A stretch of 64,000 nt of DNA from an uncultured Roseobacter sp. (lineage in GTDB: Bacteria; Pseudomonadota; Alphaproteobacteria; Rhodobacterales; Rhodobacteraceae), in contig CANKZM010000012.1 of NCBI GenBank assembly GCA_947488305.1, forward strand, positions 1-64,000, in the 5' to 3' direction. Within the stretch, counting starts at the first letter, position 1; each line of letters opens with the position of its first letter. The notes beneath the pieces were generated by a model, which saw nothing but the letters and a program-made list of their open reading frames with translations, ran no database searches and had not been told where the DNA came from. This document shows positions 661-39,050 of the stretch, piece after piece. The position numbers were made by a program, and so were the translations under genes.

Positions 661-706
661 ACTTCTAATCAGCAGGTTGAGGGTTCGAGTCCTTCAGGGA
701 TCGCCA
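661..706 (+). other. Probable att site: 3' part of a tRNA-Arg(TCT) gene
   Basis: The stretch reads as a tRNA from the anticodon loop to the 3' CCA: loop C-T-TCT-A-A (anticodon TCT, Arg), variable loop, T-arm with the GGTTCGAGTCC core, then acceptor strand, G and CCA at 704-706. The sequence upstream (ATAAG before 661) cannot pair with the anticodon stem TCAGC and has no D-arm, so this is not a functional tRNA. A bare tRNA 3' end next to an integrase is the classic footprint of site-specific integration, with the intact tRNA expected at the other end of the element, to the left of the window. Confidence 0.75.
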
Positions 707-1207
707 AGTCTTACAAAAATTACGCGAGGATTTGTGACTGACGATCCTTGTTAGTCGAGCGTAGGGTAAGCAGTGGGAGCGTCATTTTTGTCGATTCTGC
801 GTGATGGTTGCAGGGGATCGTTGCGACAGGACATACCGTTTCCCGAGCCAGCGCCACTGTTCCAGCGTGCGCCGCGACATTTGCCATCGATCCGCCAATT
901 GTGCTTGCATCACTTTAGGCATTCGAACGTCAACTGCTCACTGCGGGACGATGGATTACGGTTCGCTACTGTTTGACAAATGAGGGGCTAGGCAGCCGGA
1001 TGGTTTGTAGACCGTACTATCAAAAGGCGTGAGATAAAGGGCAGGGGGAGACGAATGTCGATAGAAGAGACGTTTGCTAGTGGTCACTATCGAACGGGAA
1101 ATAAACGCCCAATTTTGAGGTTCCCACGACGATTTGAAGCGCACATGAGACGTGCGTTGGCTCGTACGATGTGTAACACTAAACGGCACAAATTTTCCGA
1201 GGCAACA
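707..1207. other. Mostly non-coding decayed island DNA
   Basis: Apart from the small helix-turn-helix remnant at 782-922, no convincing gene is seen here. Several short open frames overlap on both strands but lack ribosome binding sites and recognisable motifs. A frame open from 1055 that joins the gene starting at 1208 has an arginine-rich, unstructured leader and is not accepted as coding. Confidence 0.5.
782..922 (-). pseudogene. Remnant of a small helix-turn-helix protein (excisionase/AlpA-like)
   Basis: A 46-residue frame starts at ATG 922. Residues 5-28 (MQAQLADRWQMSRRTLEQWR, then WLGK) match the helix-turn-helix of small excisionase/AlpA-type proteins, which read L-A-x-x-W-x-[MV]-S-x-R-T-L-E-x-W-R-x-x-G. 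The following segment, which should be the wing, diverges at once and the frame stops at residue 47, so the protein looks truncated or frameshifted. Its place just inside the att fragment fits an integration/excision accessory gene of a mobile element that lost its integrase. The short length and lack of a clear ribosome binding site keep confidence moderate. Confidence 0.45.
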
Positions 1208-1687
1208 ATGACCAGAAACACTTCCAAACTTAAAAAGACGCTGCAGAACCTGTTTTTAGCGTGCCTCAATGCAACCCTGATTCTTGTCTTCCTTTGTTTG
1301 TTAACCGCTTATTTTGCCTTCAAGAAAGTCGAAGGTATTTCGATAGCATTCGCTCAAAACCTTGTTTCGATATCACCGCTCGTAGATGAAGTTTCGGCAT
1401 TTAACACGACGATGATCGACCTAAAGGAAGAAGTTGAGTTGCTAAGACAGTCTCCCGGTGCAAACAGGGGCGCCTCTTCTTATCAACTTGAGGCCCGCCT
1501 CGACAAAATCCAGGCGAGTATTGATGATTTCAACGAGAGCGTCAGGAAAATTTCTAACGCACCAACGAAACTCATTGACCATGCAATCGACAAGGCCGCC
1601 TTGGAGCTTAAAACTGGTATAAATGAAATACGGAGTTGTTCACCGCCTACGTCCACTGAACCGCTCTCAGGAACCGTTTCAAATTGA
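1208..1687 (+). CDS. Membrane-anchored coiled-coil protein of unknown function
   Basis: I do not recognise this 159-residue protein. ATG 1208 (MTRNTSKLKK) is chosen because it follows a weak CCGAGG site and gives a normal topology; an upstream in-frame ATG at 1055 would add a basic, unlikely leader. Residues about 13-37 form one strong transmembrane helix after a positively charged N-terminus (inside positive). The rest should be outside the inner membrane. Two heptad-like stretches (about 70-85 and 96-118, rich in L, I, E and K) suggest coiled coils. The C-terminus is polar and ends in a Ser/Thr/Pro tail. No neighbour shares its strand and spacing closely enough to imply an operon. A role in membrane organisation or as a tether is a guess. 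Confidence 0.5.
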   Translation: MTRNTSKLKKTLQNLFLACLNATLILVFLCLLTAYFAFKKVEGISIAFAQNLVSISPLVDEVSAFNTTMIDLKEEVELLRQSPGANRGASSYQLEARLDKIQASIDDFNESVRKISNAPTKLIDHAIDKAALELKTGINEIRSCSPPTSTEPLSGTVSN

Positions 1688-2502
1688 TTCCGGTAAGAAG
1701 TCACGATCTTTCGGCGAAGGTTTGAAAAGTCTAAATGTGAGGCGCCTGACACCCGCGCAGCCAATGACCTGGTTGCAGATTGGGCAACTTGGGCGCGTTA
1801 ATTGTCCGGTTTAGTGAAACCATGCTGCGGCGCTGTGAAAAGTCCTGTGATTTGATGAAAAACTTGCCGCTACGTTCGCAGCGCATGCGTCATTCGGCTT
1901 ATTCCACGATTCAGATGCAACCCCACTTTTCGTCACAGTCCGCTGCATGCGCGAAGGACAACTCAGGGCTGTACTTATCCTCCGTGGCGCATACCAAAAT
2001 GCTACGCTTGCTCCAGCGGTACCGGCGTGCCTGTACGATTTGAATTCCGTACTCCGCACGAGCGGTAGCATGGCGCGAAAAGCTGATATTTGCTATAATG
2101 GCCGTCCCAAAGCAGCAATTCAGCTATGGCTAAGCGATGCTTGAAATGGCCCGCCTCTTCGGTCGCTCGCTACCACGACAGTCCTTTCTACTGAAGCAAT
2201 TCTGATTGCATGGCTTCGGATCGTCTAAAGCGACATCGTCGAGATCGCCGAAAAAATCATTGAAATCGATTTCGCATAGAGGCGGGTTCCGGAGTCTAGC
2301 CGAACAGCGCCCTCCCATAAATTGTCAATAGCGCTGTAGGAGAACTGATCCACGGGGAGTGGATTACCAATTAGAAATAACATTTTTGGTGTTCACGCAT
2401 GTGTGAACTGAAGTTCTAAATTAGCGCTTGCGAGATAAAGACGACCGGTCATATAAAATAACTTACCGATGCAACAAGCAGCCCAAACCAAAGAACTCAC
2501 CG
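1688..2502. other. 815-bp region without a supported gene
   Basis: All frames are broken by stops or give low-complexity products. Around 2071-2190 on the plus strand short frames in two phases give AAIQLWL and MARLFGRSLPRQ, faintly like the N-terminal half of IS5-family transposases, so this may be an insertion-sequence relic, but similarity is too weak to call. The right end (2439-2502) contains the promoter region and putative TetR operator of the next gene. Confidence 0.4.
2439..2452. promoter_or_regulatory. Putative TetR-family operator, copy 1
   Basis: AGACGACCGGTCAT, with the perfect 8-bp palindrome GACCGGTC at its core, lies 51 bp before the ATG of the AhpD-like gene. The same 14 bases recur at 3140-3153 before the next gene. 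TetR-family operators often have a GACC-GGTC core, and a TetR gene lies in the same cluster at 5286-5846. Assignment to that regulator is inferred. Confidence 0.6.
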
Positions 2503-3066
2503 ATGACAATTCTCCCCGTTCAAGCGTGCGAAACAGCGCCAGAGGCTAGTAGACCGCACCTTAGCGCTACAGCGGAAAACTACGGCTTCATTCCAAATCT
2601 GGCCGCTGTTTCCGCAAACTCCTTGGCGATAATCGAAGCCGATGAGGTATTGGCAAATTACATCGCGAAAATGGACCTGACGCCCGCAAAACAGAAGATC
2701 GTCTTGATGACCCATAACAGTCTGAATGGCTACGTGTATTTCATCGCCGTACATTCAATGATCGTACAAACGCAATCTATACCAGTTGACGTCATCAGTG
2801 CGGTCCGCGATGGCAAAGAGATTGCAGACCCCAATTCGCAGGCGCTTCACACCTTTACAACGCGTTTGAACGAGGCACTCGGTCACGTGTCGCAGCCAGA
2901 TGTCGATGTGTTCCTGGCGGAAAGCTACACCGACGCCAACATTCTGGATGTGATTTTGGGAACGAGTCTGAGGACGATGTCAAACTCACCGATCACACCT
3001 TTGGATGCACCATGCCAAGGTGATCCTTGGACACGACCAACCGCAGCAGCGCTCGCCGTAGCATAG
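2503..3066 (+). CDS. Carboxymuconolactone decarboxylase/AhpD-like protein lacking the active-site cysteines
   Basis: The 187-residue protein matches the peroxidase-related CMD/AhpD-like family: an NYGFIPN segment near the start, a helix with LTPAKQKIVLMTHNSLNG, then HSM, and a second half with FTTRLNEALGHVSQPDV and ILDVILGTSLRTMSN. Active members carry NGCxYCxAAHS, where a Cys-x-x-Cys pair does thiol chemistry. Here that motif reads NGYVYFIAVHS, so both cysteines are gone. The downstream SNYTNH-type histidine segment is also shortened to SNSPITPLD. The frame is intact and follows a TetR-type operator, so the protein may be made but cannot be a standard alkylhydroperoxidase. It could be decaying or serve a structural or binding role. 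ATG 2503 is chosen by homology; no strong ribosome binding site precedes it. Confidence 0.7.
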   Translation: MTILPVQACETAPEASRPHLSATAENYGFIPNLAAVSANSLAIIEADEVLANYIAKMDLTPAKQKIVLMTHNSLNGYVYFIAVHSMIVQTQSIPVDVISAVRDGKEIADPNSQALHTFTTRLNEALGHVSQPDVDVFLAESYTDANILDVILGTSLRTMSNSPITPLDAPCQGDPWTRPTAAALAVA

Positions 3067-3139
3067 AGGCTGTTCGAAACCACGAACATTCGGCCGTCAT
3101 AATCCGAATTCGATAGGAAATTCACTTCGCCACCAAAAT

Positions 3140-3153
3140 AGACGACCGGTCAT
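3140..3153. promoter_or_regulatory. Putative TetR-family operator, copy 2
   Basis: AGACGACCGGTCAT is identical over 14 bp to the site at 2439-2452 and lies 37 bp before the start of the metallo-hydrolase gene. Its place suggests that the hydrolase (and perhaps the downstream oxidoreductase) has its own promoter under the same repressor as the AhpD-like gene. Confidence 0.6.
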
Positions 3154-3190
3154 TAATTCTCTGACACAACCGCTGAAAAAAGGAAAATCC

Positions 3191-4186
3191 ATGTCAAACC
3201 CATCAGAAAACCAACTTAATCGTCGATCATTCCTCTCTAGCGCCGCATCGGTCGCCGTAGGTAGTGCGGCTGCCGGTACGCTTGTTTCGTCAGCACATGC
3301 CGCCACGCCAATTATCGGCACCCAAACACCGCTGGTTTACCGTCGCAAGTTGGGGAGCTACGAGATTACGGTCCTCGGTGACGGCTACGTCGATCTTCCG
3401 CACCAAATTTGGGCCAATGTTAGCCCAGAACAAGCGGATGGGTATCTTGCCGACGCATTTCAACCTGCCGGCTCAATTCGGAACGGTGTGAATGCCTACC
3501 TGATCAATACCGGAGAAAAGCTAATCCTTGTGGACAGTGGTGCACGCGATCTGTTCGGGCCAAACGCTGGTTTGCTGCCTAGCAACCTCGCCACGATTGG
3601 CGTGAAGCCAGAAGACATCGACATGGTTTTGATCACGCACATCCACCCAGACCACATCGCGGGCATGTACACGGCAGACGGGGAAGTGGTTATGCCAAAC
3701 GGCGAGATTTTCGTGGACGAAGCGGATCTCAACTATTGGACAAGCGAAGCGGCCCAAGCACAAGCGGTCGACATTTCAAAACCTTGGTTCGACGTCGCAC
3801 GGCAGTGGAAAACAGCCTTCAACGGTCGCATCACAACCTTCAAAGGTGAGAAAGACCTGGGCGACGGTATCTCATCATTCCCTCTCCCTGGCCACACACC
3901 TGGTCACACCGGGTACCGTATCGAAAGCGAAGGCGAGACACTGTTGATCGTCGGCGATGCTGTGATTAGCGCGGCTATCCAGTTTCCGAACCCTGATGCC
4001 GCAGCCATTTGGGACACAAACGCGGAAGACGGCAAGAAGTCCCGCCGCACGATCTTTGATGTGGCCGCGAAGGAACGCACATTGGTCACTGCCACGCACT
4101 TGCCGTTCCCGTCCTTTGGGTACGTCGACGCCCGTGCAGATGGTTCCTACGAGTGGATTCCGGAGGAATGGCGCTACGCAACCTAA
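3191..4186 (+). CDS. Tat-exported metallo-beta-lactamase-fold hydrolase
   Basis: The 331-residue protein begins with a twin-arginine signal (NRRSFLSSAASVAVGSAAAG, then an AHA cleavage-like site near residue 37), so it should be exported folded with its metals. The mature part is an MBL fold: metal-binding HIHPDH at residues 150-155, GHTPGH at 235-240 (first His a ligand), IVGDAV with Asp near 256 and THLPFP with His near 303. This arrangement is that of lactonase/glyoxalase-like periplasmic MBL enzymes, including AHL-lactonase relatives. The substrate is not known. A ribosome binding site (AAAGGAAAA) precedes ATG 3191. It lies between two genes of the TetR-controlled cluster and has its own copy of the putative operator. 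A detoxifying role against an electrophile or lactone is an inference. Confidence 0.85.
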   Translation: MSNPSENQLNRRSFLSSAASVAVGSAAAGTLVSSAHAATPIIGTQTPLVYRRKLGSYEITVLGDGYVDLPHQIWANVSPEQADGYLADAFQPAGSIRNGVNAYLINTGEKLILVDSGARDLFGPNAGLLPSNLATIGVKPEDIDMVLITHIHPDHIAGMYTADGEVVMPNGEIFVDEADLNYWTSEAAQAQAVDISKPWFDVARQWKTAFNGRITTFKGEKDLGDGISSFPLPGHTPGHTGYRIESEGETLLIVGDAVISAAIQFPNPDAAAIWDTNAEDGKKSRRTIFDVAAKERTLVTATHLPFPSFGYVDARADGSYEWIPEEWRYAT

Positions 4187-4198
4187 GCCAATCTACTT

Positions 4199-4221
4199 GG
4201 GTGCCGGGTCTACCGGCACCC
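4199..4221. terminator. Intergenic stem-loop after the MBL gene
   Basis: GGGTGCCGG and CCGGCACCC form a perfect 9-bp stem with loop GTCTA, 13 bp after the hydrolase stop codon. No T-run follows, so it may attenuate transcription or protect the mRNA end rather than terminate fully. Confidence 0.45.
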
Positions 4222-4253
4222 GAACGCTTCCCCTCAGACAATGGAGCCTAGAT

Positions 4254-5204
4254 ATGCGCGCTGTCATCGCAGAAAGAAATGGGGGCCCCGAGGTCCTCGA
4301 ACTCAAAGACATTCCGAAACCCGTACCCGGCATTGGCGAAGTTCTTGTCAAAGTCGAAGCCGCTTCCGTAAACCCATTTGATGCGCAGGTTCGCCGTGGT
4401 GACTACGCAGCCTACATGCCAACGCCACACCAATTGGGTGTCGACGTCGCTGGAACCATCGAAGCCGTCGGTGAAGGCGTGGATATGCTCGCAGTGGGCG
4501 ATGACGTCTTCTACAGCGCGCGCGTCCTGTCCAACGAAGGTGGATATGCGGAATATCACGTAGAGCAGGCCGAACTGGTCGTGAAAAAGCCCGAAGGGGT
4601 GTCTTTCGTGGATGCAGCAGCACTGCCTATCGCGGCAAGCACCGCTTGGGTGTGTCTGATCGAACGGGGCCGTCTGAAAACCGGTGATCGCGTTCTGATC
4701 CATGGTGGTTCTGGTGGCGTTGGCCTCTTCGCGGTGCAAATCGCGCGCCTGACTGGTGCTGAAGTTGTTGCCACCAGCCGCAAGGACGCTCAGGAGCTTG
4801 TTGAGAGTCTCGGTGCGAATGTCACTGTTGATTACCGCGCCCCCGATGCTTTGGATCAACTCGCAGAAAAATCCAACGGCGGTTATGATGTTATCATCGA
4901 TCTTGTCGGCGGTGATACGATTGAGAAGTCGCTCAGCCTTCTGGCCGCTGGTGGACGTGTCGTCAGCATTGTCGATCAACCAAATCCGCAGAGCCTTTAT
5001 GCTGGCTGGGGCGTTAACGCGGAAATTCACACGGTCTTCCTGACCTCAAGCGCTGAACGCCTGATGCGTCTTGGCAGCCTGACGGCACGTGGTTTGCTCA
5101 AGACGGTTGTCGAAAAGGTATTGCCCCTTGAACAAGCCGCTGAAGCGCACCGGATTATTGAGGCCGGAGGCAGGACCGGGAAGATTGTGCTCGTCACATC
5201 CTGA
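4254..5204 (+). CDS. NADP-dependent zinc-less alcohol dehydrogenase / quinone oxidoreductase
   Basis: The 316-residue protein is a medium-chain dehydrogenase/reductase of the quinone oxidoreductase (QOR) group: catalytic domain first (residues about 1-125, with PGIGEVLVKVEAASVNPFD and GVDVAGTIEAVG), then a Rossmann domain with GGSGGVGLFAVQ near 145-156. The zinc-ligand cysteines of true alcohol dehydrogenases are absent, as is normal for QOR enzymes, which reduce quinones or alpha,beta-unsaturated carbonyls with NADPH. ATG 4254 is chosen because it starts the conserved MRAVIAERNGGPEVLEL segment; an in-frame upstream extension overlaps the MBL gene. It probably belongs with the TetR-controlled detoxification set. 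Confidence 0.88.
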   Translation: MRAVIAERNGGPEVLELKDIPKPVPGIGEVLVKVEAASVNPFDAQVRRGDYAAYMPTPHQLGVDVAGTIEAVGEGVDMLAVGDDVFYSARVLSNEGGYAEYHVEQAELVVKKPEGVSFVDAAALPIAASTAWVCLIERGRLKTGDRVLIHGGSGGVGLFAVQIARLTGAEVVATSRKDAQELVESLGANVTVDYRAPDALDQLAEKSNGGYDVIIDLVGGDTIEKSLSLLAAGGRVVSIVDQPNPQSLYAGWGVNAEIHTVFLTSSAERLMRLGSLTARGLLKTVVEKVLPLEQAAEAHRIIEAGGRTGKIVLVTS

Positions 5205-5285
5205 TTGAACGGTGTAAACGAATAACGCGGGTGCGGGTGAGACCTGTTCTCATGTGTGCTTCCATCTACCAAAGGGTAAGGACTG

Positions 5286-5846
5286 ATGCCAAGACCAAGC
5301 CATAAAGACACAATTGTCCAATCAGCATTGGTTGTCTTTCACGAATTTGGTTACCATGCGAGCGGTGTCCAGGTGATCGTTGACCATGCAGGCGTTCCCA
5401 AGGGATCCTTCTACAACCACTTCAAAAGCAAAGACGATTTGGGGTTGGAAGTTCTTGATGCTTACTGGCGCCAATTTGAACCTATCCGTGCGGTTTTGAG
5501 AGACTCTGATAAAAACCCGTTGGACCGCATCGACGCGCATCTCGCTGCTTTTAGCGTGACCCAAAGCGGATGCCTGATCGGGAACTTCACGGGAGAAATG
5601 GCCAACATACCCAAGTTCCGGGCAGCCCTGCAGGATCTCTACGCCAGTTGGATTTCAGATTTTGAATTCTGTATCGAACAAGGCCAAAAAGATGGGACCA
5701 TTCGAACGGATGAGACCGCAAAAGCTCTTGCTGAGTTTATCTTGACATCTCTTGAAGGCTCGGTTCTGAAACGAAAGATTTCAAAGGATGAGCGCAATCT
5801 CATCAGCTTCCGAAAAACCATGATGTTGCTGCTACGCCCGACGTAA
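5286..5846 (+). CDS. TetR/AcrR-family transcriptional regulator
   Basis: The 186-residue protein has the N-terminal TetR helix-turn-helix at residues about 5-50: KDTIVQSALVVFHEFGYHAS, then GVPKGSFYNHFKSKDDLGLE. The C-terminal half is a ligand-binding helical domain with CLIGNFTGEMA, a signature of LmrA/YxaF/NemR-like repressors that sense electrophiles or small aromatics. GGTAAGGA precedes ATG 5286. It lies in the cluster that carries two identical GACCGGTC-centred sites and is the obvious candidate to bind them. No copy of the site was seen in the 80 bp before its own start, so autoregulation is not evident. Confidence 0.88.
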   Translation: MPRPSHKDTIVQSALVVFHEFGYHASGVQVIVDHAGVPKGSFYNHFKSKDDLGLEVLDAYWRQFEPIRAVLRDSDKNPLDRIDAHLAAFSVTQSGCLIGNFTGEMANIPKFRAALQDLYASWISDFEFCIEQGQKDGTIRTDETAKALAEFILTSLEGSVLKRKISKDERNLISFRKTMMLLLRPT

Positions 5847-5976
5847 GTCACGGCCAATAGAAGCTTCCATTTTTCACGACCACCCACATCCGGCTTTTGG
5901 CCGTACCTAAAGCCATGGGAACCCCTGATCTGGTTCCTGTCAATTCGCACTCAAAACAAACCCCTAGGAGAAAACA

Positions 5977-6381
5977 ATGACGAACCTAACTCAAACCGAC
6001 GAAGCCGACGAAGCCTACAGCTTTGCAGAGTATCAAGCCATCGAAGCTGCGCTAATGCCATATATCGACGCAGCTAAATTTGGCGATGGCCAATTGTCAC
6101 GCAGCGCATTTCTTGACCATGCACATATCGTAGGGTCGGTTGAAGGCACTTACTACGATATGGACGCAGATACGTTTGCCAACGCTGTGTCCGACGGCGG
6201 CCCAGCCCCAGATGTCCAAAGCCACATTGCCTGGATCAACGTGTCAGGCCCCGCCGCCGCCGCACGCGTCGAATTCCTGAACTGGGGCGGTATGCGCTAC
6301 ACCGACTTCTTTGTGCTCTACAAAAAAGACGGTGTCTGGAAGATCAGCAGCAAGGTCTATGACTCACATTCCAAAAACTAG
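5977..6381 (+). CDS. NTF2-like (SnoaL/lumazine-binding-like) family protein
   Basis: The 134-residue cytosolic protein has the cone-shaped NTF2-like pattern: helix 1 with AEYQAIEAALMPYIDAAKFG, a strand with FLDHAHIVGSVEG and a C-terminal sheet with SHIAWINVSGPAAAARVEF and FFVLYKKDGVWKISSKVYDS. Such proteins are putative lumazine-binding or small-ligand enzymes with a hydrophobic cavity; no catalytic pair can be assigned. A strong AGGAG site at 5967-5971 precedes ATG 5977. It follows the TetR gene on the same strand with a 130-bp gap and is likely part of the same stress/detoxification set, but it may have its own promoter. Confidence 0.75.
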   Translation: MTNLTQTDEADEAYSFAEYQAIEAALMPYIDAAKFGDGQLSRSAFLDHAHIVGSVEGTYYDMDADTFANAVSDGGPAPDVQSHIAWINVSGPAAAARVEFLNWGGMRYTDFFVLYKKDGVWKISSKVYDSHSKN

Positions 6382-6781: not shown

Positions 6782-7780
6782 TCAGCCGACTTCTTCTACA
6801 TCATGATCCGGGCGAACCGTGTAGCGCCAACTTGCCTCTTGCCGGGCACGACGCTTGAACGTTGTACTGGGTAATTCTCCAAAGGAGTCCGCATACATTT
6901 GCGCGAAACGGCCGCTGCTCAGAAAACCGGCTTGCAATGCTGCATCTTTCACGGATCGCGCTCCATCAATTGAGCGATTGAGCAATTCTCTGGAAAAGGA
7001 AAGGCGATGCTTGATCAGATATTCGCCTGGCGATACGCCGTGGATGTCTACGAAGGCCTGATGCAAACGAGTTTTGCCGACTCCGGTCGCCCCGCAAAGC
7101 GCAGCAATATTAATCTGGTCTAAATCAGATTGTCGAACCTGTTCGAGTGCCGCTTCGACGATTTTCAGACTGCTCGGTTCAAGAAGGTTCCGTAGGGCGG
7201 CATTTCCTTCTAGTGAGACGGTCCAATCTGCAATGGATGAAATCAGATCTGCTTCGAAAACAGGGGGTATCAGGTAGCTTCCATTGTTCTGCCCATTTGC
7301 CGACGCGGCGTTCTGAACCCGCGTAATCAGGCGAACGAGCCGGTCGGCGTGAAAGCGCGACGTCGGGAGCAAATGATGCCCGTTCGGGAAGGCTTCTGTT
7401 TCGGTCCCTCTCAAACTGGACCACGCGCGTTGAAAGCAGGGTCGCCTGACCCCAACAAGTAGTGCACGGCGTTTCCCGTAAGAGAAAACAAAATCGGAAC
7501 TTGAATCCAAAAGAAAGACATTGCCCGGGGCGGCCGCCGCCTTGTTCATTAAGTAGTCGCCCTCCCACCAGAGCGGGACCGTGAAACCAATCCAATCTGG
7601 ATCTGCAAGAGATGACCACGAGGTCCGTGGGCGCGACTGAATATCAAGAATGAAAGACGATTGGCCCCAAGTCTCGAGACTTCGCAGGTTCATAGGCCCG
7701 CGCCCGGTCTGGACCATTTCGGAAGCGCGAAGAGGAAACCGGTCTAAATAACTACCTGTGTAACGTGGCTCAACGGACAC
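6782..7780 (-). CDS. AraC-family transcriptional regulator
   Basis: The 332-residue protein ends in an AraC/XylS double helix-turn-helix (residues about 215-315): INIAALCGATGVGKTRLHQAF, then GVSPGEYLIKHRLSFSRELL and a second motif with SVKDAALQAGFLSSGRFAQMY, then SFGELPSTTFKRR. The first 200 residues form a sensor domain of the AraC_binding_2 kind. The start is a GTG at 7780; no strong ribosome binding site precedes it and the exact start is uncertain. It is divergent from the secreted amidohydrolase at 8049, with about 270 bp between them, so it most likely activates the 8.0-13.8 kb cluster in response to an unknown ligand. Confidence 0.85.
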   Translation of the reverse strand: MSVEPRYTGSYLDRFPLRASEMVQTGRGPMNLRSLETWGQSSFILDIQSRPRTSWSSLADPDWIGFTVPLWWEGDYLMNKAAAAPGNVFLLDSSSDFVFSYGKRRALLVGVRRPCFQRAWSSLRGTETEAFPNGHHLLPTSRFHADRLVRLITRVQNAASANGQNNGSYLIPPVFEADLISSIADWTVSLEGNAALRNLLEPSSLKIVEAALEQVRQSDLDQINIAALCGATGVGKTRLHQAFVDIHGVSPGEYLIKHRLSFSRELLNRSIDGARSVKDAALQAGFLSSGRFAQMYADSFGELPSTTFKRRARQEASWRYTVRPDHDVEEVG

Positions 7781-8048
7781 GGCATTCCCGCTGAGTCAGT
7801 TGGCTTAATGTGTGCTCTATTCGAAAGTGAAAGATTCGCACCTCGTTTTTGCTCCCGGTTTCTGTGTAGCCCGCTAACCTGAATAATGCGGCATATCGTA
7901 AAACCCTGGCTGTGCTTCCGCTTTGAAGAAAAGTTAGTACACTAGCATAAAGTAACAAGCCCGTCAGAATACAAATTGTTTGCCAAATATAAGCTTGAAA
8001 TCCGCCAGGCGCCACAAGTTGGCTTAAGCTCTTTGAAAGGTCCAGTTG

Positions 8049-9587: not shown

Positions 9588-9680
9588 CTCACGCACCAAT
9601 AAATCTGCGGCTAAGAGCCAGAGACACTCTTTCTCAGTAGGGGAGTATCAGGCGCTCAAGAAATGGAAAATGAAATTTCT

Positions 9681-10484
9681 ATGAAAGCCACATTTTTTAG
9701 AAACCTTGCGCTTGTCACCGCTGTTTTATTTGCACCTCAGGTGTCGGCGCAGAGTGCGGGGACCGCAAATGAACTGGCCCAACAATTGTCAAACCCGGTC
9801 GCAAGCCTGATCAGTGTGCCGTTTCAACTGAATTACGACGAAAACATCGGATCCGACGATGATGGGTCTATGTGGATGCTCAATGTCCAACCTGTGGTTC
9901 CCTTTGATCTCGGCAGCGACTGGAACCTGATCTCGCGTACGATCGTTCCGTTGAAATGGAGCGATGATATCCCGTCTGGTGACGGATCAGATTTCGGCGT
10001 GGGTGACATTGTTCAAAGTTTCTTCTTTTCGCCAAAAGCACCGACATCGGGTGGGTGGATATGGGGCGCGGGTCCAGTCATTCTGATCCCCACCTCGGAC
10101 GACCTGCGTTATGGCGCAGGGGAATGGGGTGTAGGAGCGACCGCAGTTGCACTCAAACAAACCGGTGGCTGGACCTATGGCGGATTGGCGAACCATATTG
10201 TCGACGTGGATGGCGACATCAATATCAATTCGACGTTCCTACAGCCTTTCTTGGCCTACACGACCGCCGATGCCTGGACGTACGCAGTCAATACCGAAAC
10301 GACTTATGATTGGGAGAATGAACAATGGACCGTGCCGATCAATGCTAGCGTCTCGAAGCTGGTCCATATCGGCAAGCAACCCGTCAGCTTCCAGATAGGG
10401 TTTCGCTATTGGGCAGACTCTCCGTCCGGCGGCCCCGAGGATTTTGGCCTTCGCACAGGTGTAACATTTCTGTTTCCGAAATAG
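9681..10484 (+). CDS. Outer-membrane transporter-like beta-barrel
   Basis: The 267-residue protein has a signal peptide (MKATFFRNLALVTAVLFAPQ, VSAQ) and then alternating polar/hydrophobic strands with many aromatic ends (WMLNVQPVVPFDLGSDWNLI, GGWIWGAGPVILIPTS, FQIGFRYWADSP) and a C-terminal GVTFLFPK ending typical of barrels. This is the family annotated as neutral transporter or Phenol_MetA_deg-like, linked to uptake of organic compounds across the outer membrane. ATG 9681 is preferred because it opens a standard signal peptide; an in-frame ATG at 9663 would add six residues. It sits between two secreted amidohydrolases, so delivery of their substrate or export of their product is a fair inference. 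Confidence 0.65.
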   Translation: MKATFFRNLALVTAVLFAPQVSAQSAGTANELAQQLSNPVASLISVPFQLNYDENIGSDDDGSMWMLNVQPVVPFDLGSDWNLISRTIVPLKWSDDIPSGDGSDFGVGDIVQSFFFSPKAPTSGGWIWGAGPVILIPTSDDLRYGAGEWGVGATAVALKQTGGWTYGGLANHIVDVDGDININSTFLQPFLAYTTADAWTYAVNTETTYDWENEQWTVPINASVSKLVHIGKQPVSFQIGFRYWADSPSGGPEDFGLRTGVTFLFPK

Positions 10485-10562
10485 CGTGCCGGTCGACGGT
10501 AGGCAGTGGCCTGATCGCTGCAGTGAAAATGAGAAACTTTTTGAACTCAAAAGGACGATTAC

Positions 10563-11891
10563 ATGAAACTTAGTGCTGCAATTTTTGCATTTGCCGTTTT
10601 CTCGACGGCGGCAGTGGCTCAAGACGGCCCTGCCCAAACGCTTTTCACCAATGTGCATGTCTTTGACGGCGTTAACGAAGCCCGGATCGAAAACGCAAAT
10701 GTGCTGGTCGAAGGCAACGTGATCAAACAGATTTCGACCGATGCAATTGACGCTGGCGGCGCCACGGTCATCGATGGCGACGGACGCACTCTGATGCCCG
10801 GGATTATCGAAGGACATTCGCATATTGCCTTGTCGGGCGTGACATTTGCGGACGTTTTGTTCGAATTGCCAGGTTACCAATCCATTCAGTCTGCACTGAC
10901 CGCGCGGGATATGCTTATGAATGGTGTAACTTCGGCTCGTGACATGTCCGGTGAGGTTTTCAGCGTAAAGCGCTTGATTGACGAAGGGTACGTTGAGGGG
11001 CCGCGTATCTTTGCCTCTGGCACCATGATTTCCCAGACCAGTGGTCATGCGGATTTCAGACCGCGCAATGCCCGCAATCCCATGCTTGGTGGTGGCGTGC
11101 CGGTCAGTGATCTGTCTGGGAACAGTACGTTGGTCGATGGTGTGCCCAATGTTCTGGCCGCCGTCCGCGAGCAACTTCGCCTCGGAGCATCCCAGATCAA
11201 GCTTGCGGCAGGTGGGTCTGTAAGCGGGCCAGTCGACCCTCTCGATACGACGCAGTTCACGTCGGAAGAATTCGAAGCAGCGGTTGCGGCGGCTGAAAAC
11301 TGGGGCACCTATGTCACCGTACACGCCTACACACCACGTGCGGTTAATCAGGCCATTGATGCGGGTGTCAAATCTGTTGAGCATGGGCAACTGCTAGACC
11401 GGCCAACGCTTGAACGCATGGCGGCAGAGGGTATCTGGCTCAGTATTCAGCCCTTCACACTTTGCAATGAACCGGGATTGAACGACGCCCAGAACGCCAA
11501 ACAGGCGATCGTGTGCAAGGGTACGGGCCAGGTTTACGAATGGATCAAGGAGCTGCCGGACCTGAAAGTGGTGCATGGCACCGATATCTTTATCAGCCCT
11601 GGCCCGGGCATCGGCGTGAGCGAACAGGTTCAGCAGATGGAACGTTTGCTTGATTGGTTTACACCGTACGAGATCCTCAAGATGTCCACGGGCAACTTCA
11701 CTGAGCTTCTGCAATTGTCTGGCCCGCGCAATCCCTATCCCGGTGACCTTGGCGTGGTACAAGAAGGCGCATTGGCCGATCTGTTGCTTGTTGAGGGCAA
11801 CCCGCTGGAGGACATCACTGCAATTACCAATCGTGATAACCTGAAAATCATCATGAAAGACGGTGTTATCTTCAAGAATACCATGAATTAG
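10563..11891 (+). CDS. Secreted amidohydrolase, imidazolonepropionase/prolidase-like subgroup
   Basis: The 442-residue protein has a signal peptide (MKLSAAIFAFAVFSTAAVAQ) and the subgroup pattern of periplasmic amidohydrolases related to Xaa-Pro or Xaa-Arg dipeptidases: LMPGIIEGHSHIALSG (His-x-His), IKLAAGGSVSG with the usual bridging Lys, VTVHAYTPRAVNQAIDAGVK (His), SVEHGQLLD (His) and HGTDIF (Asp). It ends with LADLLLVEGNPLEDI, the usual cap strand. AAAGGA precedes ATG 10563. The second secreted hydrolase in 4 kb, it may act on the product or a related form of the first enzyme's substrate. Confidence 0.82.
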   Translation: MKLSAAIFAFAVFSTAAVAQDGPAQTLFTNVHVFDGVNEARIENANVLVEGNVIKQISTDAIDAGGATVIDGDGRTLMPGIIEGHSHIALSGVTFADVLFELPGYQSIQSALTARDMLMNGVTSARDMSGEVFSVKRLIDEGYVEGPRIFASGTMISQTSGHADFRPRNARNPMLGGGVPVSDLSGNSTLVDGVPNVLAAVREQLRLGASQIKLAAGGSVSGPVDPLDTTQFTSEEFEAAVAAAENWGTYVTVHAYTPRAVNQAIDAGVKSVEHGQLLDRPTLERMAAEGIWLSIQPFTLCNEPGLNDAQNAKQAIVCKGTGQVYEWIKELPDLKVVHGTDIFISPGPGIGVSEQVQQMERLLDWFTPYEILKMSTGNFTELLQLSGPRNPYPGDLGVVQEGALADLLLVEGNPLEDITAITNRDNLKIIMKDGVIFKNTMN

Positions 11892-12364
11892 GCCGTTACT
11901 CGTCGACAGATAATTCGCGGCCTCACTCAAAAATAACCAAAGTTTGCATTCGCAGTTTCCCTGCTGCGGGTGCATTTCTCGACTAAGGCACGAGTTACGG
12001 TGCTTGATTTGACCGGAATGGAATTCATCATATTAAGGCTTTCAGATTCTAAACTTTATGTTCAGCTGGCCAGGATCGGACAAAACGAACCTCAGAATAC
12101 CGGGTTTGTCGCTCGCTCCGGGAGAGCGTTGCTTTCTGTTTGGTGCCAGCGAAATGCCCTCGCCCCCACAGGCCAACACTTTTGGGTCCCAAGGTCTTTC
12201 AAGGTACGAATCTTCCGCAAAGCATGCATGGGCGGAGGGTCGCGTTGACAGATGAGTTCAATGCACACCATAGATGGTTCATATTAACTCATAGGGACGC
12301 CGTGCATCTGCGAAGGGTAAGTCCACCAGTTCGAAAACAACGATGGTTTCTGAGGAGAATATTC
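11892..12364. other. 473-bp region before the porin gene
   Basis: No gene is supported. A plus-strand frame that joins the porin from 12140 lacks a ribosome binding site and reads as unstructured sequence. A TTGACA at 12245-12250 could be a -35 element, but no well-spaced -10 is evident. The length suggests that the porin has its own promoter. Confidence 0.35.
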
Positions 12365-13783
12365 ATGAAAAGCAGGTTTACAGCAAATATTCTTGCTCTA
12401 TCGACGGCGGTTGCTTTCGCAACGATATCATCCACTTCTGTTGTCCGCGCTGAAGCTGCCGAGGCTGCTTCCGGATCGGAAAAGATATCATTGCTGGATG
12501 CTGCTCCGCCGGTTCTGAGTGTCGCTCTGCGGTATCCCAAGTACTATTCAGACCCGAACACAGATCGCGCTACCGTCGACGGCCCGCTTGCGCAACGTCA
12601 GTATCTATTCGGAAGCTTTGGCGGCGCACGGGATCGCCTGGCCGCAAATGGCTTTCTTTTCAGCGGTGGGATCACCCAAACCGTTCAAGGCGTTGTCGAT
12701 GGCGCCGGAGATGACGGGAAGACCCGGTTCGCTGGCTCGGCGGATTTCTACCTTGGTATTGATACAGGGCGTGCGGGTTGGTGGTCCGGCGGTTTGATCA
12801 TAGCGCACGCGGAAGGCAATTGGGACGTGCCGGTTTCTGGCGCGGGTGCGCTGCTTCCGCTGAACGCCGATACCATCATGCCGGGGGAGCCATCGAGTTT
12901 CGCGCTTTCGGAACTGTACCTGTTTCAGGCGCTACCCAATGATTTCTCTTTGATCGCGGGTAAATTTGCGGCCACTGCCTTTGCCGACACAACGCTATTC
13001 GCCAACAATGAACGCAACCAGTTTTTGTATGAAGGACTGGTCAACAATGCGGTTCTTGGAGCTTTTGTGCCCTACACTAGTTGGGGCGCGCTCGTTTCCA
13101 AGCAGATCAATCCGACCTTCTCGGTCGCCGGAGCTGTTTTGGGGAACACCGGAAACGCATTGAGCTTGGGTCTGGATGATCTGGATGCGGATGAAGTGAC
13201 CATTGGTGCGGTATTCGACTGGTCGCCGACGTTCTACGGCAAACCGGGCAATTACAATGTCCTCCTTGGTTATAGCAACAAGGACGTTGCCAGTTTTGAT
13301 GTTGATCCACGTTATCTGCTGGGCGAGGTCCTCGGAGAAGTGCCGGTGATCGAAGAGGATGATAACTACGCGATGACCATAGCTGGATCCCAGTACTTTT
13401 GGACGAATCCAACTGCACGGCGTAGCGATGGGAAGACAGTTGGATATGGTCCCTTCTTCAGAGTGGGTCTGGCCCCGAGTGACAGGAACCTGATTGACGA
13501 GTTCTACAGCATCGGGCTCGGCGGAAACGGTGGTATTCTCGGTCGTCATGACGACAACTGGGGCGTCGGCGTCTCATACACTGGGTTTTCCAATGATCTG
13601 CGTGACAATTTGGACGACTTGAATGTGGACGTAGACAGCAACGAAACCGTAGCGGAAGCTTTCTACAACGTGGCATGGACACCCGCTATTAAGACGTCTT
13701 TCCATGTGCAGTATGTGGAATCCGCCAATCCCACTCTGGACGAGGCCACAATACTAGGGCTTCGGCTTCAACTGGATTTTTGA
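12365..13783 (+). CDS. OprB-type carbohydrate-selective porin
   Basis: The 472-residue protein starts at ATG 12365 after a clear GAGGAG site, with a signal peptide (MKSRFTANILALSTAVAFAT, then a VRA-E site). The mature part fits the OprB family: an N-terminal FGGARDRLAANGFLFSGGIT, then TQTVQGVVDG, FYLGIDTGRAGWWSGGL, FALSELYLFQALPNDFSLIAGK and a C-terminal YNVAWTPAIKTSFHVQYVES ending in RLQLDF. OprB porins let sugars or other small polar molecules cross the outer membrane. Following two secreted hydrolases and another barrel, it probably serves the same substrate. The signal for regulation was not identified. Confidence 0.78.
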   Translation: MKSRFTANILALSTAVAFATISSTSVVRAEAAEAASGSEKISLLDAAPPVLSVALRYPKYYSDPNTDRATVDGPLAQRQYLFGSFGGARDRLAANGFLFSGGITQTVQGVVDGAGDDGKTRFAGSADFYLGIDTGRAGWWSGGLIIAHAEGNWDVPVSGAGALLPLNADTIMPGEPSSFALSELYLFQALPNDFSLIAGKFAATAFADTTLFANNERNQFLYEGLVNNAVLGAFVPYTSWGALVSKQINPTFSVAGAVLGNTGNALSLGLDDLDADEVTIGAVFDWSPTFYGKPGNYNVLLGYSNKDVASFDVDPRYLLGEVLGEVPVIEEDDNYAMTIAGSQYFWTNPTARRSDGKTVGYGPFFRVGLAPSDRNLIDEFYSIGLGGNGGILGRHDDNWGVGVSYTGFSNDLRDNLDDLNVDVDSNETVAEAFYNVAWTPAIKTSFHVQYVESANPTLDEATILGLRLQLDF

Positions 13784-13958
13784 ACGCGCAAAACGTTCGG
13801 ATGGAGCCTCTGATATATGGTCTGTGACGCTATATATTGATTAGTCGATGCTGACCGGGTGCTTTTTGGGCTAGTGGGCATGCCGCGTCAGGTAGCTTTT
13901 CGAACTTCCCATTGGACCCACGAGGGAAATCACTCGACTGTATTGATGGCATGAGTCT

Positions 13959-15923
13959 TCAACTCGTCGTCTTTTTGCCGGGCACGTCTTCTTCATCAAT
14001 GTTTTCCACGGGTTCCGGCGATAGTGAAAGCGTCTCTTCAACCTCGGAGACTTCGATCCCGTCGCTCGCGAAATCCGGCGAACCCTTCGGAGGATAGTCG
14101 AGCTTGTCATCGATCTGTTTCCGTGTGGCCGCTGAAAACGCCGGGAAAGGCAACTCGCTCTGGCGTCGCCATTGCTCGACCGTCTTGATCGCTTGTGTAG
14201 ATTTATCCGTATCGAGGCCTTCGTCCCGGGACATGTAAAGCGTCTGCGACGGAAAGGCGAAAGACGACCCTGAGCCTTCGACGGCCTGTTTGACGCGAAA
14301 CATCACGTCTTCGCGGATGGCAAAAAAATCGTTCCACTCGCGTGTCTTCGCATAGCATCTGATCTGGATGTTCAACGAAGAATCCCCGAACTCATCGAAC
14401 CTGACCCGGACCGTTTCGTTATCGATCCGGGGATGTGCATACATCGTTCGTCTGATTTCAGCGAGAATGAACCGAAGCTGATCGCTGTCTGTTTCATACC
14501 GGACGCCAATGGTGGTCTGAATCATCATCTGATCGCACATCGCCCAATTCACCAGTTCCATATCGGCGAATTGCGAATTGGGAATCGTGATCAGTGTTCT
14601 GTCGAGTGCACGCACTTGCGTTGACCTGACACCAATTCTTTCCACGACACCCTGAAATGATCCGAAGGTGCAGAAGTCCCCGACTCTGATGGGTTTGTCC
14701 AAAAAGAGAACAAACCCACCGATCAGGTTTTCGAGAGTCGGGCGAATGGCGAGTGCGGCTGCGATGCCACCGACTCCGAGGCCCGCGAGAAGGCTCAGAG
14801 TCGGGATTCCCAGACGTTGAAGGCCATAAGCCATCAACCAGATTGCGCCGATGGTGCCCAATATATGCGAGATCAAGCGCATCATGTTTCGATCAACGCT
14901 TTTCTCTTCTTTGCTATAATGCGCTGCCAAGGCCTCGAATAGGACGACTACAGAGATCCAGAGTAACCAGGACAATGTGCCGTAAATGAGCAGGGTCATG
15001 ACCAACCTCACTGCATCTGACAGAGCGCCAGCGACAATAACTTGGCTGTGAAGCAGGTTATGGAAGAACCAGAGCAATCCGACCAGCAGAAGCGCGTGTA
15101 GGAAACGCACGATAAGCAGTGTCATCTTTCCTGCTTTTTCGAGGCCCAGAAGCTGCCGTTTGTTCATCACAATAAAATAGGCAATGACCAATAGAACGAT
15201 CAGGGCGGCCACGGACTTCCACGCCGGAGACCCGAGAATTTCAACCGTCAACGCTTCGGGCAATATCGCCACAAAGGAACTGGGTATCCATGGCCCGGTG
15301 AGGTTGGTGACGTCCTTGCTCCAACTCGTAAACGGCGTATTGGTTCTTAGCGGCAGACCCTCTATTCCCGTAAGAAATCGCGGCGCCACAACAACCGTTT
15401 GCGGGCTAAAGAGATATTCTCCGTAGTTCACACCTTCCTCCACCCGTTGCAGACGAAGTGGTGTTCCGGGGATGGTGTAAGAACTGCTGCCAATGTCGGC
15501 CAGGCCTTCAGTATCCGGCGCATCATCCGGATTTGGTGCTTCGATCCGCCCAAAGATGTCCAGCAACGCCCAGACTGTGCGTGCGGAAATTTGATCTATT
15601 TTCCCTTCCGGAACCTCGGAGGTGTCCACCAAGCTTTCGAGCTCGTTCAGGATCATCAACATACGATCAAACTCAGCCTTGCTGCGGGTCTGAATGTATC
15701 TTGATGTAGCGTCCTCCAAGTTTGATTTGAGAGCGAGGAAACTTGTAATCGTTTGGCGCGGGCTCTCCAAAACAGCTATGAGGGCCGCATCCGCGTTTTG
15801 GTTCAGAAAACTCTGGTTTGCGCCGTTGTTATTTGCGTTTTGTGCCTGAACCGGGGCGATCAAAAGAAAACTGATCCATATAGCTACAAACAGGGCTTTC
15901 GCAAAAACACTTATCAATCGCAT
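13959..15923 (-). CDS. MscS-family mechanosensitive channel with large periplasmic domain
   Basis: The 654-residue protein starts at ATG 15923 with a signal peptide (MRLISVFAKALFVAIWISFL, then an AQA site). A periplasmic domain of about 210 residues follows, then several membrane helices from about residue 225, and the MscS pore and beta domain: LAGLGVGGIAAALAIRPTLE, NLIGGFVLFLDKPIRVGDFC, VVERIGVRSTQVRALDRTLI, TIPNSQF. The cytoplasmic cage region follows, with an acidic C-terminal tail rich in Glu. MscS channels release solutes on membrane tension. The gene lies 160 bp downstream of a BamA-type barrel on the same strand and is probably co-transcribed with it. The long periplasmic domain suggests an added sensing or partner-binding role. 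Confidence 0.88.
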   Translation of the reverse strand: MRLISVFAKALFVAIWISFLLIAPVQAQNANNNGANQSFLNQNADAALIAVLESPRQTITSFLALKSNLEDATSRYIQTRSKAEFDRMLMILNELESLVDTSEVPEGKIDQISARTVWALLDIFGRIEAPNPDDAPDTEGLADIGSSSYTIPGTPLRLQRVEEGVNYGEYLFSPQTVVVAPRFLTGIEGLPLRTNTPFTSWSKDVTNLTGPWIPSSFVAILPEALTVEILGSPAWKSVAALIVLLVIAYFIVMNKRQLLGLEKAGKMTLLIVRFLHALLLVGLLWFFHNLLHSQVIVAGALSDAVRLVMTLLIYGTLSWLLWISVVVLFEALAAHYSKEEKSVDRNMMRLISHILGTIGAIWLMAYGLQRLGIPTLSLLAGLGVGGIAAALAIRPTLENLIGGFVLFLDKPIRVGDFCTFGSFQGVVERIGVRSTQVRALDRTLITIPNSQFADMELVNWAMCDQMMIQTTIGVRYETDSDQLRFILAEIRRTMYAHPRIDNETVRVRFDEFGDSSLNIQIRCYAKTREWNDFFAIREDVMFRVKQAVEGSGSSFAFPSQTLYMSRDEGLDTDKSTQAIKTVEQWRRQSELPFPAFSAATRKQIDDKLDYPPKGSPDFASDGIEVSEVEETLSLSPEPVENIDEEDVPGKKTTS

Positions 15924-16085
15924 GATCAGGCTTTCCACTGGTTTGTCTCTTTTCTTGAACCTAAAGCTATTGGCTGAATTGTAACATCCAAATCGGCCTA
16001 TTCTTCGCTGTCGAGAACCTGGCAATACGACGGATAGTTCAGCAGTTTACTCCACTGAAACTCAACTGTGACGGTCCAAATGACC

Positions 16086-17342
16086 TTAGAACTTCTGGCC
16101 CAAAGACAGATACAAAAAATGTTCGCCCGTATCGTTGAACGCGTAGTCAATTGCATAGTCCAGAGAAAACTGCTTGGACAGACGGACGCGAAGTCCAACT
16201 CCTCCTGCGACGTTGATCTTGGACAAAACATCACCAAAATCATTGTTGGTTCCACCACCGCCTAAAAAGGCAACATAGCCGAAACGATCACTCAGTCGGC
16301 CCCTGTACTCCGCTTGAAGCGAAGCTGAATAATTGCCCAGAAAGCTGAAGGCAGGGAATCCGCGCACGCCATCGACCAATCCCAGCCCGCAGGTGTCAAA
16401 GAACGGCGCGTCGTCACCCGCGCTACAGAATACTCCGCGTCCAGCAATCACACCCCGGTCAGATAACTTATGGTAAGTCGATCCGGACGCAAGAAATTTG
16501 AGGTAGGACTTGGAAGCAAGCTCAAACCTGTCCGAAAAGGCTGAATCCAGCTCCTCGCTGTAAGACAAGTCAAGGTCAGCCTTAATGCCTTGCGTGGGAT
16601 AAAAAGTGTTGTCGCGAGAGTCGTATTCAACAAGGAAATGGACTTTTCCCAATGTGATGTCCAAATCGGGCTGCAATGCCGGTGGAAGCAGAGACAAAAG
16701 ATCATTGTCTATTCTGATATCCGTATCCAGATGAGAGAGTTGCAAGCCGAAACTCAGACGCTCCTTAACTGTCCGGCGCACAGACATCGACAGCAGTTCG
16801 CCATCCTGATTTAGCGGCAGTTCAAGGTCACCTATGAGCGGAAGGTCGTAAAAAACGTCGCCTTCCGCACCCAAAACAAAAACGTTCCACCGTCCTTGGT
16901 CGAAATTCAGACTTGCGCCGGCACCATACCCGGTGCTGCCGTTGGATGACCTCAGTTTGGCAACACCGAACCCAGATGGCTTTGAGTTCGGCAAATTGAA
17001 CAGGTAGCCTGCGCCCAGCGTTAGGCCGCTGCCAATGAGCGGGCTGGAGAATGGTATCGGTGCCACAATCACGGAACCGACCTTGACCCCTGATTTCGCT
17101 TCAACGGTATCAGGATTAACGACACCTGCCCCACTTTGAAGCACTTGCTGGGAAAGTGCAGCAGCAGGAAAAAGCAAGCAAAGGGAAGTGAGTGCCGCCT
17201 TGCAAACTTGGTCAAGAACAAGCGCAAGTCCAAGTTTGTAACGCGCGAGGAGTTGTTTCAATGTATCCTCGGATATTTGCGACAGTGAAGAATCACTCTG
17301 AACCATAATTGAATTCACAACTATGTCGTTGTTACCTTGCAT
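16086..17342 (-). CDS. BamA/TamA-type (D15, surface antigen) outer-membrane barrel without POTRA domains
   Basis: The 418-residue protein has a long N-region and a hydrophobic signal stretch (about residues 38-64, ending PAAALSQQ). The C-terminal two thirds match the bacterial surface antigen (D15) barrel: VEYDSRDNTFYPTQG, GVRGFPAFSF (variant of the VRGY/F lid-lock motif) and a final DYAIDYAFNDTGEHFLYLSL then GQKF, with the terminal Phe of barrel proteins. There is no room for POTRA repeats between signal and barrel, so it cannot be a normal BamA. Such short D15 proteins are seen with patatins, phosphatases or channels and may act in lipid or protein transport at the outer membrane. It precedes the MscS gene. 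Confidence 0.75.
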   Translation of the reverse strand: MQGNNDIVVNSIMVQSDSSLSQISEDTLKQLLARYKLGLALVLDQVCKAALTSLCLLFPAAALSQQVLQSGAGVVNPDTVEAKSGVKVGSVIVAPIPFSSPLIGSGLTLGAGYLFNLPNSKPSGFGVAKLRSSNGSTGYGAGASLNFDQGRWNVFVLGAEGDVFYDLPLIGDLELPLNQDGELLSMSVRRTVKERLSFGLQLSHLDTDIRIDNDLLSLLPPALQPDLDITLGKVHFLVEYDSRDNTFYPTQGIKADLDLSYSEELDSAFSDRFELASKSYLKFLASGSTYHKLSDRGVIAGRGVFCSAGDDAPFFDTCGLGLVDGVRGFPAFSFLGNYSASLQAEYRGRLSDRFGYVAFLGGGGTNNDFGDVLSKINVAGGVGLRVRLSKQFSLDYAIDYAFNDTGEHFLYLSLGQKF

Positions 17343-18763
17343 TACGACAGATTCCCACCAACGCGTTATCTAGTTTTTGCATTTCGAACCTTCTACCCCG
17401 GGGGAAAAGCCAGAGGATAGGCAATTCCATTGTTTGGGTCTGATTTGATGCGCAATTTCCTCTTTTGTCATCACCGAAAAAAGTGATCTGCACGGGATGA
17501 CGTGCAGCTTGAAAACCGGACCTTTCAAAGCTGGAAACCCCCATTCATGAATGCGTGTGTGGGAGGAGGAGAGCAGTCTGACATCAAATGGAAGGCAATG
17601 AAGGCCCTCCAGTCCCGCATAGATCAATTTGCGAAACTGGAAACGCGTGTTTCGGGAACTGCCACTTGCTATCTTTTCAGACATAACGTCCTCTGCTTGC
17701 CGCAAGGGATTATGGCAAGATGCGTGTCGCGATGGGTACACTCAGGCCACTGGAGACAAGGTGTGACGTGCGCGCGCCGATTTGTTGCCAAAAACCGGTC
17801 GAAGCTGGACTTGGTTGGTCTTCGTGCTTTCGGATAAAGTGGGCAAGCAAAATGAGCCGAGTTGGGAAGAACCTTGTGGTGATTTGAACAGCCGTAGATA
17901 GGTAAAATTTTAAGGACAAGTGTACTCCATAAAACTACATACAAATCCATCATGATTGGCGTAGTCAGATGTCCAATCAGCATGTAGAGGGTTCGAGACC
18001 TGCAGGCATCGCCAGTTTTTCTTTTTACAGAAAACCTGCTAAAAGCGTTGGAATATGTAAGAATCTGTTGGCTGTAAGGGACAAGAGACGCGAAAATCTA
18101 CCGTTCGCCACATCATCTGCCTAAGACCGGCAGTCCGAATCTGTTTTTTTACTTTGTCAAAACCAAAACGCGCGGGATTGCACCTCAGAATTTCACCTAA
18201 TTTGCCACACTGGTGCCAATCATTTTGTCCAAAAAGTCTAAACCTTTATTTATTGTGGAGAGTATTCGTGCAAATGATCGTTCGTGACGCCGATTGTATC
18301 GTGTTTGAGGTTAACGCTGACACTCTCGAACCAATTTCAAAGTCCTATTTGGACCCCTTTTGCCACATCAAGCCAAAGTCCAGCGTCTGGTACATGAGCT
18401 TTTCGGAGTGGTGCAGCGTTATGGACAGGACACGTCCACCCCTAAAGGCGTCCACTCAACAAGGCAGCAACCCGAGCCCTTTCGACGCCTGATCTCGGTT
18501 CCGGCGAGTCCTGCTGCAATACGTTCAGCTTAGATCGCTTTTTGCTCGGGTTCCTTGCAAAGAGCTTTCCGCTTGATGCTGACTACGGGCTCGCGAGGAT
18601 CGTCTTAGGTATTCGTGCCTGCAAGGGCGAGACGTAAATACAGATTGTTGGTCGCCCAACTGCCCGGCACTCGGGTCAGACAAGACGGTTACCGATTTGC
18701 GACAAGCTGTGCCAGGACGGGACCGGGATAGACAGGAAACAGCATTCCTGAACCTCGCCTAGA
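17343..18763. other. 1.4-kb region with no convincing gene; boundary of the accessory block
   Basis: The minus strand has a 105-residue frame (17370-17687) with GAGGAC before its ATG and the plus strand a 72-residue one from about 18274. Neither has recognisable motifs and both may be relics. The region contains the decayed tRNA-Arg 3' end at 17970-18014 and T-rich sequence directly after it (18015-18027). The lack of genes and the tRNA relic fit a recombination scar. Confidence 0.45.
17970..18014 (+). repeat. Decayed second copy of the tRNA-Arg 3' end (possible old att site)
   Basis: Aligned base by base with 662-706, 37 of 45 positions are identical, ending in GCATCGCCA. The orientation is the same. 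Base 33 of the tRNA numbering is G instead of the invariant T and the T-arm has a mismatch, so it is not a functional tRNA. A direct repeat of an att-like tRNA end 17.3 kb away suggests that 707-18,014 was once a separate integrated element or the tail of a composite island. Confidence 0.5.
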
Positions 18764-38915: not shown

Positions 38916-39050
38916 CGGGGCGTTTCCTCCTGATAAAAGAGGTAAGCGGTTGCGCTGCCAAGGTCCAGAGGCGGTGATGTTCGACCCTAGCGACAATAGT
39001 CCGGCAGGGGACAAAACCGATATTTTTTGAAGCAATAAAAAACCAAAGGG

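Follow-up and report, generated by a model that had tools for sequence, protein, structure and literature searches.

What is the 17-kb stretch of accessory-type DNA that lies between two tRNA-Arg ends near the start of a contig of an uncultured Roseobacter sp.? The contig (CANKZM010000012.1 of assembly GCA_947488305.1; here C12, 73,124 bp) was analyzed over its first 64 kb, which we call the window. The stretch in question, positions 707 to 18014 (17,308 bp), is referred to as the block. An initial annotation had described it as a second, tandem element that inserted into an already occupied tRNA-Arg site and then lost its mobility. We consider it about 90% probable that the block is a defunct integrative element of a tRNA-targeting tyrosine integrase family (Arm-DNA-bind_3/DUF4102 type), standing in tandem at tRNA-Arg(TCT). 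This is because there are family-specific features at both of its ends, it is absent as a unit from all 18 congeneric genomes, and its G+C content is shifted. The same three lines of evidence uphold the tandem 17-kb element with apparently lost mobility, but not its place as the second arrival, since the block probably came first.

Two copies of a tRNA-Arg end bound the block

C12 begins within an integrase gene, and ARAGORN called no whole tRNA in the window. The intact tRNA-Arg(TCT) gene of this genome (G000) is at the very end of another contig (C4, positions 632068-632144). The 3' end of that gene recurs perfectly at the left edge of the block (copy A) and in decayed form at its right edge (copy B; Table 1). 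The direct match of 662-706 to 17970-18014 at 37 of 45 bases, reported in the initial annotation, was reproduced. It is part of a longer direct repeat of 53 bp at 81% identity (654-706 versus 17962-18014), the longest among the direct repeats listed for positions 1 to 36500. A simple binomial calculation expects 1.8e-10 matches at the 37/45 level. The best 45-base match on either strand of 200 random 73-kb sequences with the same dinucleotide make-up averaged 25.3, and the maximum of 28, compared with 37 here, rejects chance similarity of copies A and B.

The initial annotation had allowed that copy B might be matched better by an unrelated sequence. Within its own genome this is not so, because its best matches elsewhere are the C4 tRNA-Arg (E 5.7e-8) and then copy A (2.0e-7); the next has an E value of 0.67. 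Copy B differs from the tRNA at eight positions. Seven of these differences occur in none of the 19 tRNA-Arg(TCT) genes compared (own gene included), and we therefore rejected the idea that copy B is another allele of the gene. A third attachment copy further right was not found, with other 45-base matches in C12 reaching at most 27.

Table 1. Features of the window, with strand and basis of assignment
Positions	Strand	Feature	Basis
1..503	-	N-terminal part (167 codons) of the integrase gene of neighboring element 1, cut by the start of C12	Pfam, G018 identity
524..541	+	Right end of element 1: exact twin repeat GGTAAGC-N4-GGTAAGC, putative arm-type site	
662..706	+	Copy A: tRNA-Arg(TCT) 3' end, serving as attachment copy for both element 1 (on its right) and the block (on its left)	45/45 to C4 tRNA
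754..771	+	Left-end twin repeat of the block, with 3 mismatches in the first copy and none in the second	
785..922	-	46-amino-acid truncated relative of an excisionase-like HTH_17 gene	DNA likeness to G018
1055..6381	+	Unknown protein, peroxidase-related protein, metallo-beta-lactamase (MBL)-fold hydrolase, zinc-type oxidoreductase, TetR regulator, lumazine-binding-like protein	Pfam, NCBIfam
6782..7780	-	AraC-type regulator	Pfam HTH_18
8046..13783	+	Two amidohydrolases, one exported protein without family, OprB-type porin	Pfam, NCBIfam
13959..17342	-	MscS-type channel and Omp85-type outer membrane protein	Pfam
17644..17824	-	Integrase fossil with the gene's 3' end, a single inner piece and its 5' end in order; internal loss of about 1 kb	Gapped alignment, blastn, tblastn
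17842..17848	+	Decayed arm-like heptamer, 1 mismatch	Aligned with G018 repeat
17970..18014	+	Copy B: outer (right) attachment copy of the block, decayed	37/45
35673..44549		Conserved chromosome (rnhA, ispH, relA/spoT and pdxJ region; names read from translations); right limit of the variable region	

The right end of the block holds an integrase fossil

A congener, G018, carries a living counterpart. Its tRNA-Arg(TCT) is followed 32 kb on by a 45/45 attachment copy, just inside of which is an open, inward-reading integrase gene. The product (387 residues from the second ATG) matches Arm-DNA-bind_3, Phage_int_SAM_3, Phage_int_M, and Phage_integrase. In the block, the same place, just ahead of the attachment copy and reading inward, is the usual integrase place of the family, and it is occupied by remnants. 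Of the G018 integrase gene, the 3' end aligns with positions 17644-17737, an inner part with 17738-17768, and the 5' end with 17777-17824. Farther right, 17842-17894 and 17923-18017 align, in order, with the G018 leader and attachment copy. The decayed heptamer at 17842 is 128 bp before copy B, and the G018 repeat with which it aligns is likewise 128 bp before its attachment copy.

Against G018, the blastn E value was 6e-8 for 17649-17737; it was 1e-10 for 17918-18017, a stretch that includes the attachment copy. Pieces of the fossil found by tblastn had E values of 2e-5 and 3e-5. With the attachment region excluded, the gapped score against G018 was 271.7, compared with a mean of 179.0 (standard deviation, 9.2; maximum, 210.5) for 100 shuffles. 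Scores were also above the shuffled maxima for two other integrase genes, from the block's own genome, on contigs C2 (263.6 versus 214.5) and C8 (209.3 versus 161.7). A 31-amino-acid piece of the fossil matched no Pfam model. Judged from this in-order alignment, the block once carried this family's integrase, and the fossil is still in place after losing about 1 kb inside. Because of these remnants, the earlier description of the block as integrase-less is true for function only.

The left end carries the family's end signature

Within the genus (19 genomes), integrase matches at E 1e-60 were confined to G000 and G018. At 1e-120, nine of the 394 genomes in a family sample (these two included) had matches. 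Together, these nine genomes gave 11 integrase loci, with those on C8 and C12 represented by the first 167 codons only and that on C2 broken in frame near codon 77. All 11 have a twin GGTAAGC repeat, spaced 11 bp, at 18 to 40 bp from the gene start (nine exact, two with one mismatch), and all 11 have a tRNA 3' half at 155 to 197 bp. A random 200-base stretch holds such a twin within three mismatches in 0.7% of 20,000 trials. We infer that the twin repeats are arm-type binding sites of the integrase.

At the left end of the block, the twin repeat starts at a 0-based offset of 47 after copy A; the offset is 48, with exact repeats, in three other left ends (the right end of C4, the left end of C4 at a tRNA-Lys, and G018). 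Next to the repeat, window positions 835-970 are 77% identical in DNA to a G018 stretch encoding a 67-amino-acid excisionase-type protein. The G018 protein matches HTH_17 and PHROG 66 excisionase, and the 46-amino-acid piece in the window matched no model.

The repeat pattern was also tried as a genome-wide marker and rejected. At two or fewer mismatches it gives three places in its own genome. The reversed control gives two, and therefore only the two exact matches at the C4 ends carry weight. The integrase copy on C2 (112015-112950) is beside a tRNA-Lys-like 3' fragment (113311-113376). Together, they are another decaying element of the family.

The block is absent as a unit from congeners and differs in composition

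The block has no counterpart as a unit in any of the 18 congeners, as judged from at most 15 first-look candidates per genome. Some match to it was present in 17 of 19 genomes (own included), but elsewhere it covered no more than 1.2 kb and was often the tRNA alone. In the family sample, where at most two candidates per genome were considered, 6 of 394 genomes (own included) had a match at E 1e-40. Those in the other five were partial, and no genome of the sample but its own had the block as a unit.

The G+C content in 1-kb bins was 52.2% for the block, 54.8% for 18015-35600, and 55.8% beyond. The lower G+C of the block relative to the DNA beyond (p 5e-5) supports the tandem-element reading. 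G+C at third codon positions (GC3) also differed (p 8e-5; 13 versus 35 genes).

A proposed order of events

When an element integrates into the 3' half of a tRNA gene, the gene is restored on one side, and the original 3' half ends up at the far end of the element. If another element later enters at the restored tRNA, it pushes the older one outward. We propose that an ancestor of the block recombined into the 3' half of tRNA-Arg(TCT), with the displaced 3' half becoming the outer copy at 17970-18014. The integrase of the block would then have lost about 1 kb, its excisionase-like gene would have been truncated, and its outer attachment copy would have decayed. Probably later, a related element (element 1) would have integrated at the restored tRNA 3' end, between the tRNA and the block, and the two are now divided by its right attachment copy (662-706). 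The block was probably the earlier arrival, and element 1, with the integrase at 1-503, the later one, because the left (inner) attachment copy of the block is perfect at 45/45 and the right (outer) one is decayed at 37/45. Integrase loss and the decay of copy B have probably left the block fixed.

The window's element 1 integrase fragment matches Pfam Arm-DNA-bind_3 and Phage_int_SAM_3 and is 84% identical to the G018 integrase over 167 amino acids. We did not find the interior of element 1; the C2 copy aside, no contig matches the latter half of the integrase at E 1e-60. Both ends of C4 (the start, locus L158, 1-150, at tRNA-Lys, and the end, locus L002, 1471-1618, at tRNA-Arg) are left ends of family elements, and the end of C8 and the start of C12 break at the same integrase codon. 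This suggests two elements whose interiors are nearly identical and absent from the assembly.

The chromosome around the site

The gene just ahead of the C4 tRNA-Arg has a relative in 50 of 59 genomes (own genome counted) in a search for relatives. We compared 20 stretches of at most 20 kb each, chosen by place. Congeners supplied 18 of them, another genus (G029) supplied one, and the last came from C12 itself. Of the 19 foreign stretches, 17 had a tRNA-Arg(TCT) called by ARAGORN; the exceptions were those of G004 and G008. The genes after tRNA-Arg differ widely among the stretches. Conserved chromosome does not start at 18014, a boundary that was rejected; it resumes only near 35.7 kb. Proteins encoded there (Table 1) are mostly 77 to 97% identical to products of congener genes downstream of their tRNA-Arg, with two genes at 47 to 56%. 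The counterpart of the window from 35.7 kb on is about 5 to 15 kb past tRNA-Arg in five congeners (G010, G007, G006, G016, and G002) and about 85 kb from it in two (G011 and G013). Because this gene order is shared and the family-element ends match, we infer that the tRNA-Arg end of C4 joins the integrase end of C12.

Window positions 24410-32120 hold a polyol-type ATP-binding cassette transporter and dehydrogenase cluster (named by reading the translations). Long matches to it (E 0) occur at other places in the genomes of 16 of 18 congeners. Here it is between tRNA-Arg and the rnhA-type block, and therefore some rearrangement has taken place.

Counterevidence and alternative explanations

Several results weigh against a defunct element in tandem at tRNA-Arg. 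The C4-C12 junction is absent from the assembly. No empty site was found, and no congener stretch compared has the same right flank. The DNA after copy B is unlike any of the 19 stretches that follow tRNA-Arg (best z, 2.0). Except for one protein at 51% identity, the flank at 18 to 35.6 kb was not seen behind tRNA-Arg in the congener stretches, which cover at most 20 kb each. The initial annotation had proposed codon bias as a check on the block, and here the difference was not significant (p 0.08). At the right end, the twin of the heptamer at 17842-17848 is not recognizable. Finally, the fossil scored 156.1 against the gene end of element 1 itself, of which the first 167 codons were compared, and this is not above the shuffled maximum of 157.5.

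Of the alternatives, the one that survives best is that the block and element 1 arrived by one insertion rather than two, as a composite already fused in another cell. An excerpt of PMC5704250 states that the transfer of whole composite tandems is possible, and the perfect copy A could act as the inner copy of such a composite. However, copy A is identical to the local tRNA and copy B differs from it at eight positions, which fits a long stay at this place. Decay of copy B elsewhere, before transfer, is also compatible with these data. We regard a single composite insertion as unlikely.

Tandem accretion at tRNA-Arg might also reach further than proposed. Copy B would then be the boundary of two old elements, and the DNA from 18015 to 35.6 kb would be a third, older island at the same tRNA. 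The absence of this flank behind tRNA-Arg in the congener stretches fits such an extension, as does a heptamer at 18073, at the expected offset, that matches the arm repeat at five of seven positions. However, no further attachment copy is present, as noted above, and the 100 bases that follow copy B hold no twin repeat within five mismatches. The composition of the flank is core-like (GC3, p 0.31), and its polyol-type operon is found elsewhere in most congeners. A third island is therefore quite improbable. A pseudo-tRNA or chance match unrelated to integration, for which one could cite the eight differences and the missing tRNA 5' half of copy B, is very unlikely, because the random sequences exclude chance and the missing 5' half, with the fossil and leader in the right order and spacing, is what integration predicts.

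Relation to known systems

The arrangement at tRNA-Arg is the product of a known kind of process, tandem accretion with a decayed element that resembles a cis-mobilizable element (CIME), and the block is a well-preserved example. The order of events proposed above matches the three-step accretion that PMC5704250 describes for decayed, CIME-type elements. As portrayed there, a CIME in tandem with an integrative and conjugative element (ICE) or an integrative and mobilizable element (IME) is like the block in having lost integration and transfer genes, in having attachment copies at both ends, and in the accretion of a related element at the same tRNA 3' end. The block differs from a CIME in that its outer attachment copy is decayed (37/45) and an integrase fossil remains. 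It differs from an ICE or IME in having no relaxase or conjugation gene detected by Pfam among its 13 cargo proteins, and so its ancestor need not have been an ICE.

Genomic islands of the IntSXT/P4 type, to the extent covered by an excerpt of PMC8138268, can be likened to the block by their Arm-DNA-bind_3 (DUF4102) integrase and tRNA insertion. In the family of the block, however, the inward-reading integrase adjoins the displaced tRNA 3' half, at the far (right) end. The closest likeness is the 32-kb G018 island, which shares the tRNA, the integrase family and position, and the left-end repeats, and has relatives of the MscS channel (43%) and an amidohydrolase (40%) in its cargo. It differs from the block in its open integrase and 45/45 attachment copy, and it is longer, with mostly different cargo.

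The block leaves a clear layered record: a perfect inner copy, a decayed outer copy, and a fossil where living relatives keep the integrase. The family end signature (twin repeat plus tRNA 3' half) is a simple search handle for dead islands without a working mobility gene. The cargo is metabolic, and therefore the case shows how metabolic genes become fixed at a tRNA hot spot. A broader proposal, which we make tentatively and consider less likely than not, is that the block belongs to a so far undescribed Rhodobacteraceae-type family of integrative islands. Such islands would have a DUF4102-type integrase at the far end and, at each end, the same pair of GGTAAGC arm sites. They would use several tRNA genes (Arg, Lys, and, from the letters, probably Thr) through a shared anticodon-arm sequence, and defunct members could still be excised by a resident relative. 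No published account of this island family was found in a literature search of titles and abstract openings.

Cargo genes and their relatives

Pfam placed none of the 13 cargo proteins in a relaxase, conjugation, transposase, or phage family, and three matched nothing. The match of the peroxidase-related protein falls below the cut-off of its model. The MBL-fold protein (3191-4186) has a signal-like start, and its nearest NCBIfam model is that of an AidB-type acyl-homoserine lactonase, with a score of 196.7 bits that falls short of the cut-off, 360.

Relatives of the MscS channel, the AraC-type regulator, the exported protein, and the amidohydrolases cluster elsewhere on contig C1 of G018 (locus L143, 3304-10496). 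Part of this cluster, together with an Omp85 relative, is found on C1 of G009 (L142, 9484-16329). Identities in the two clusters range from 28 to 75%, and the clustering points to a functional module that recurs. When named genomes were searched with the Omp85-like protein, six loci were found. In the two that were examined (L161 of Roseovarius gaetbuli and L162 of Salipiger bermudensis), no tRNA was called and there was no integrase or MscS match. The R. gaetbuli locus contains two relatives of G018 island proteins.

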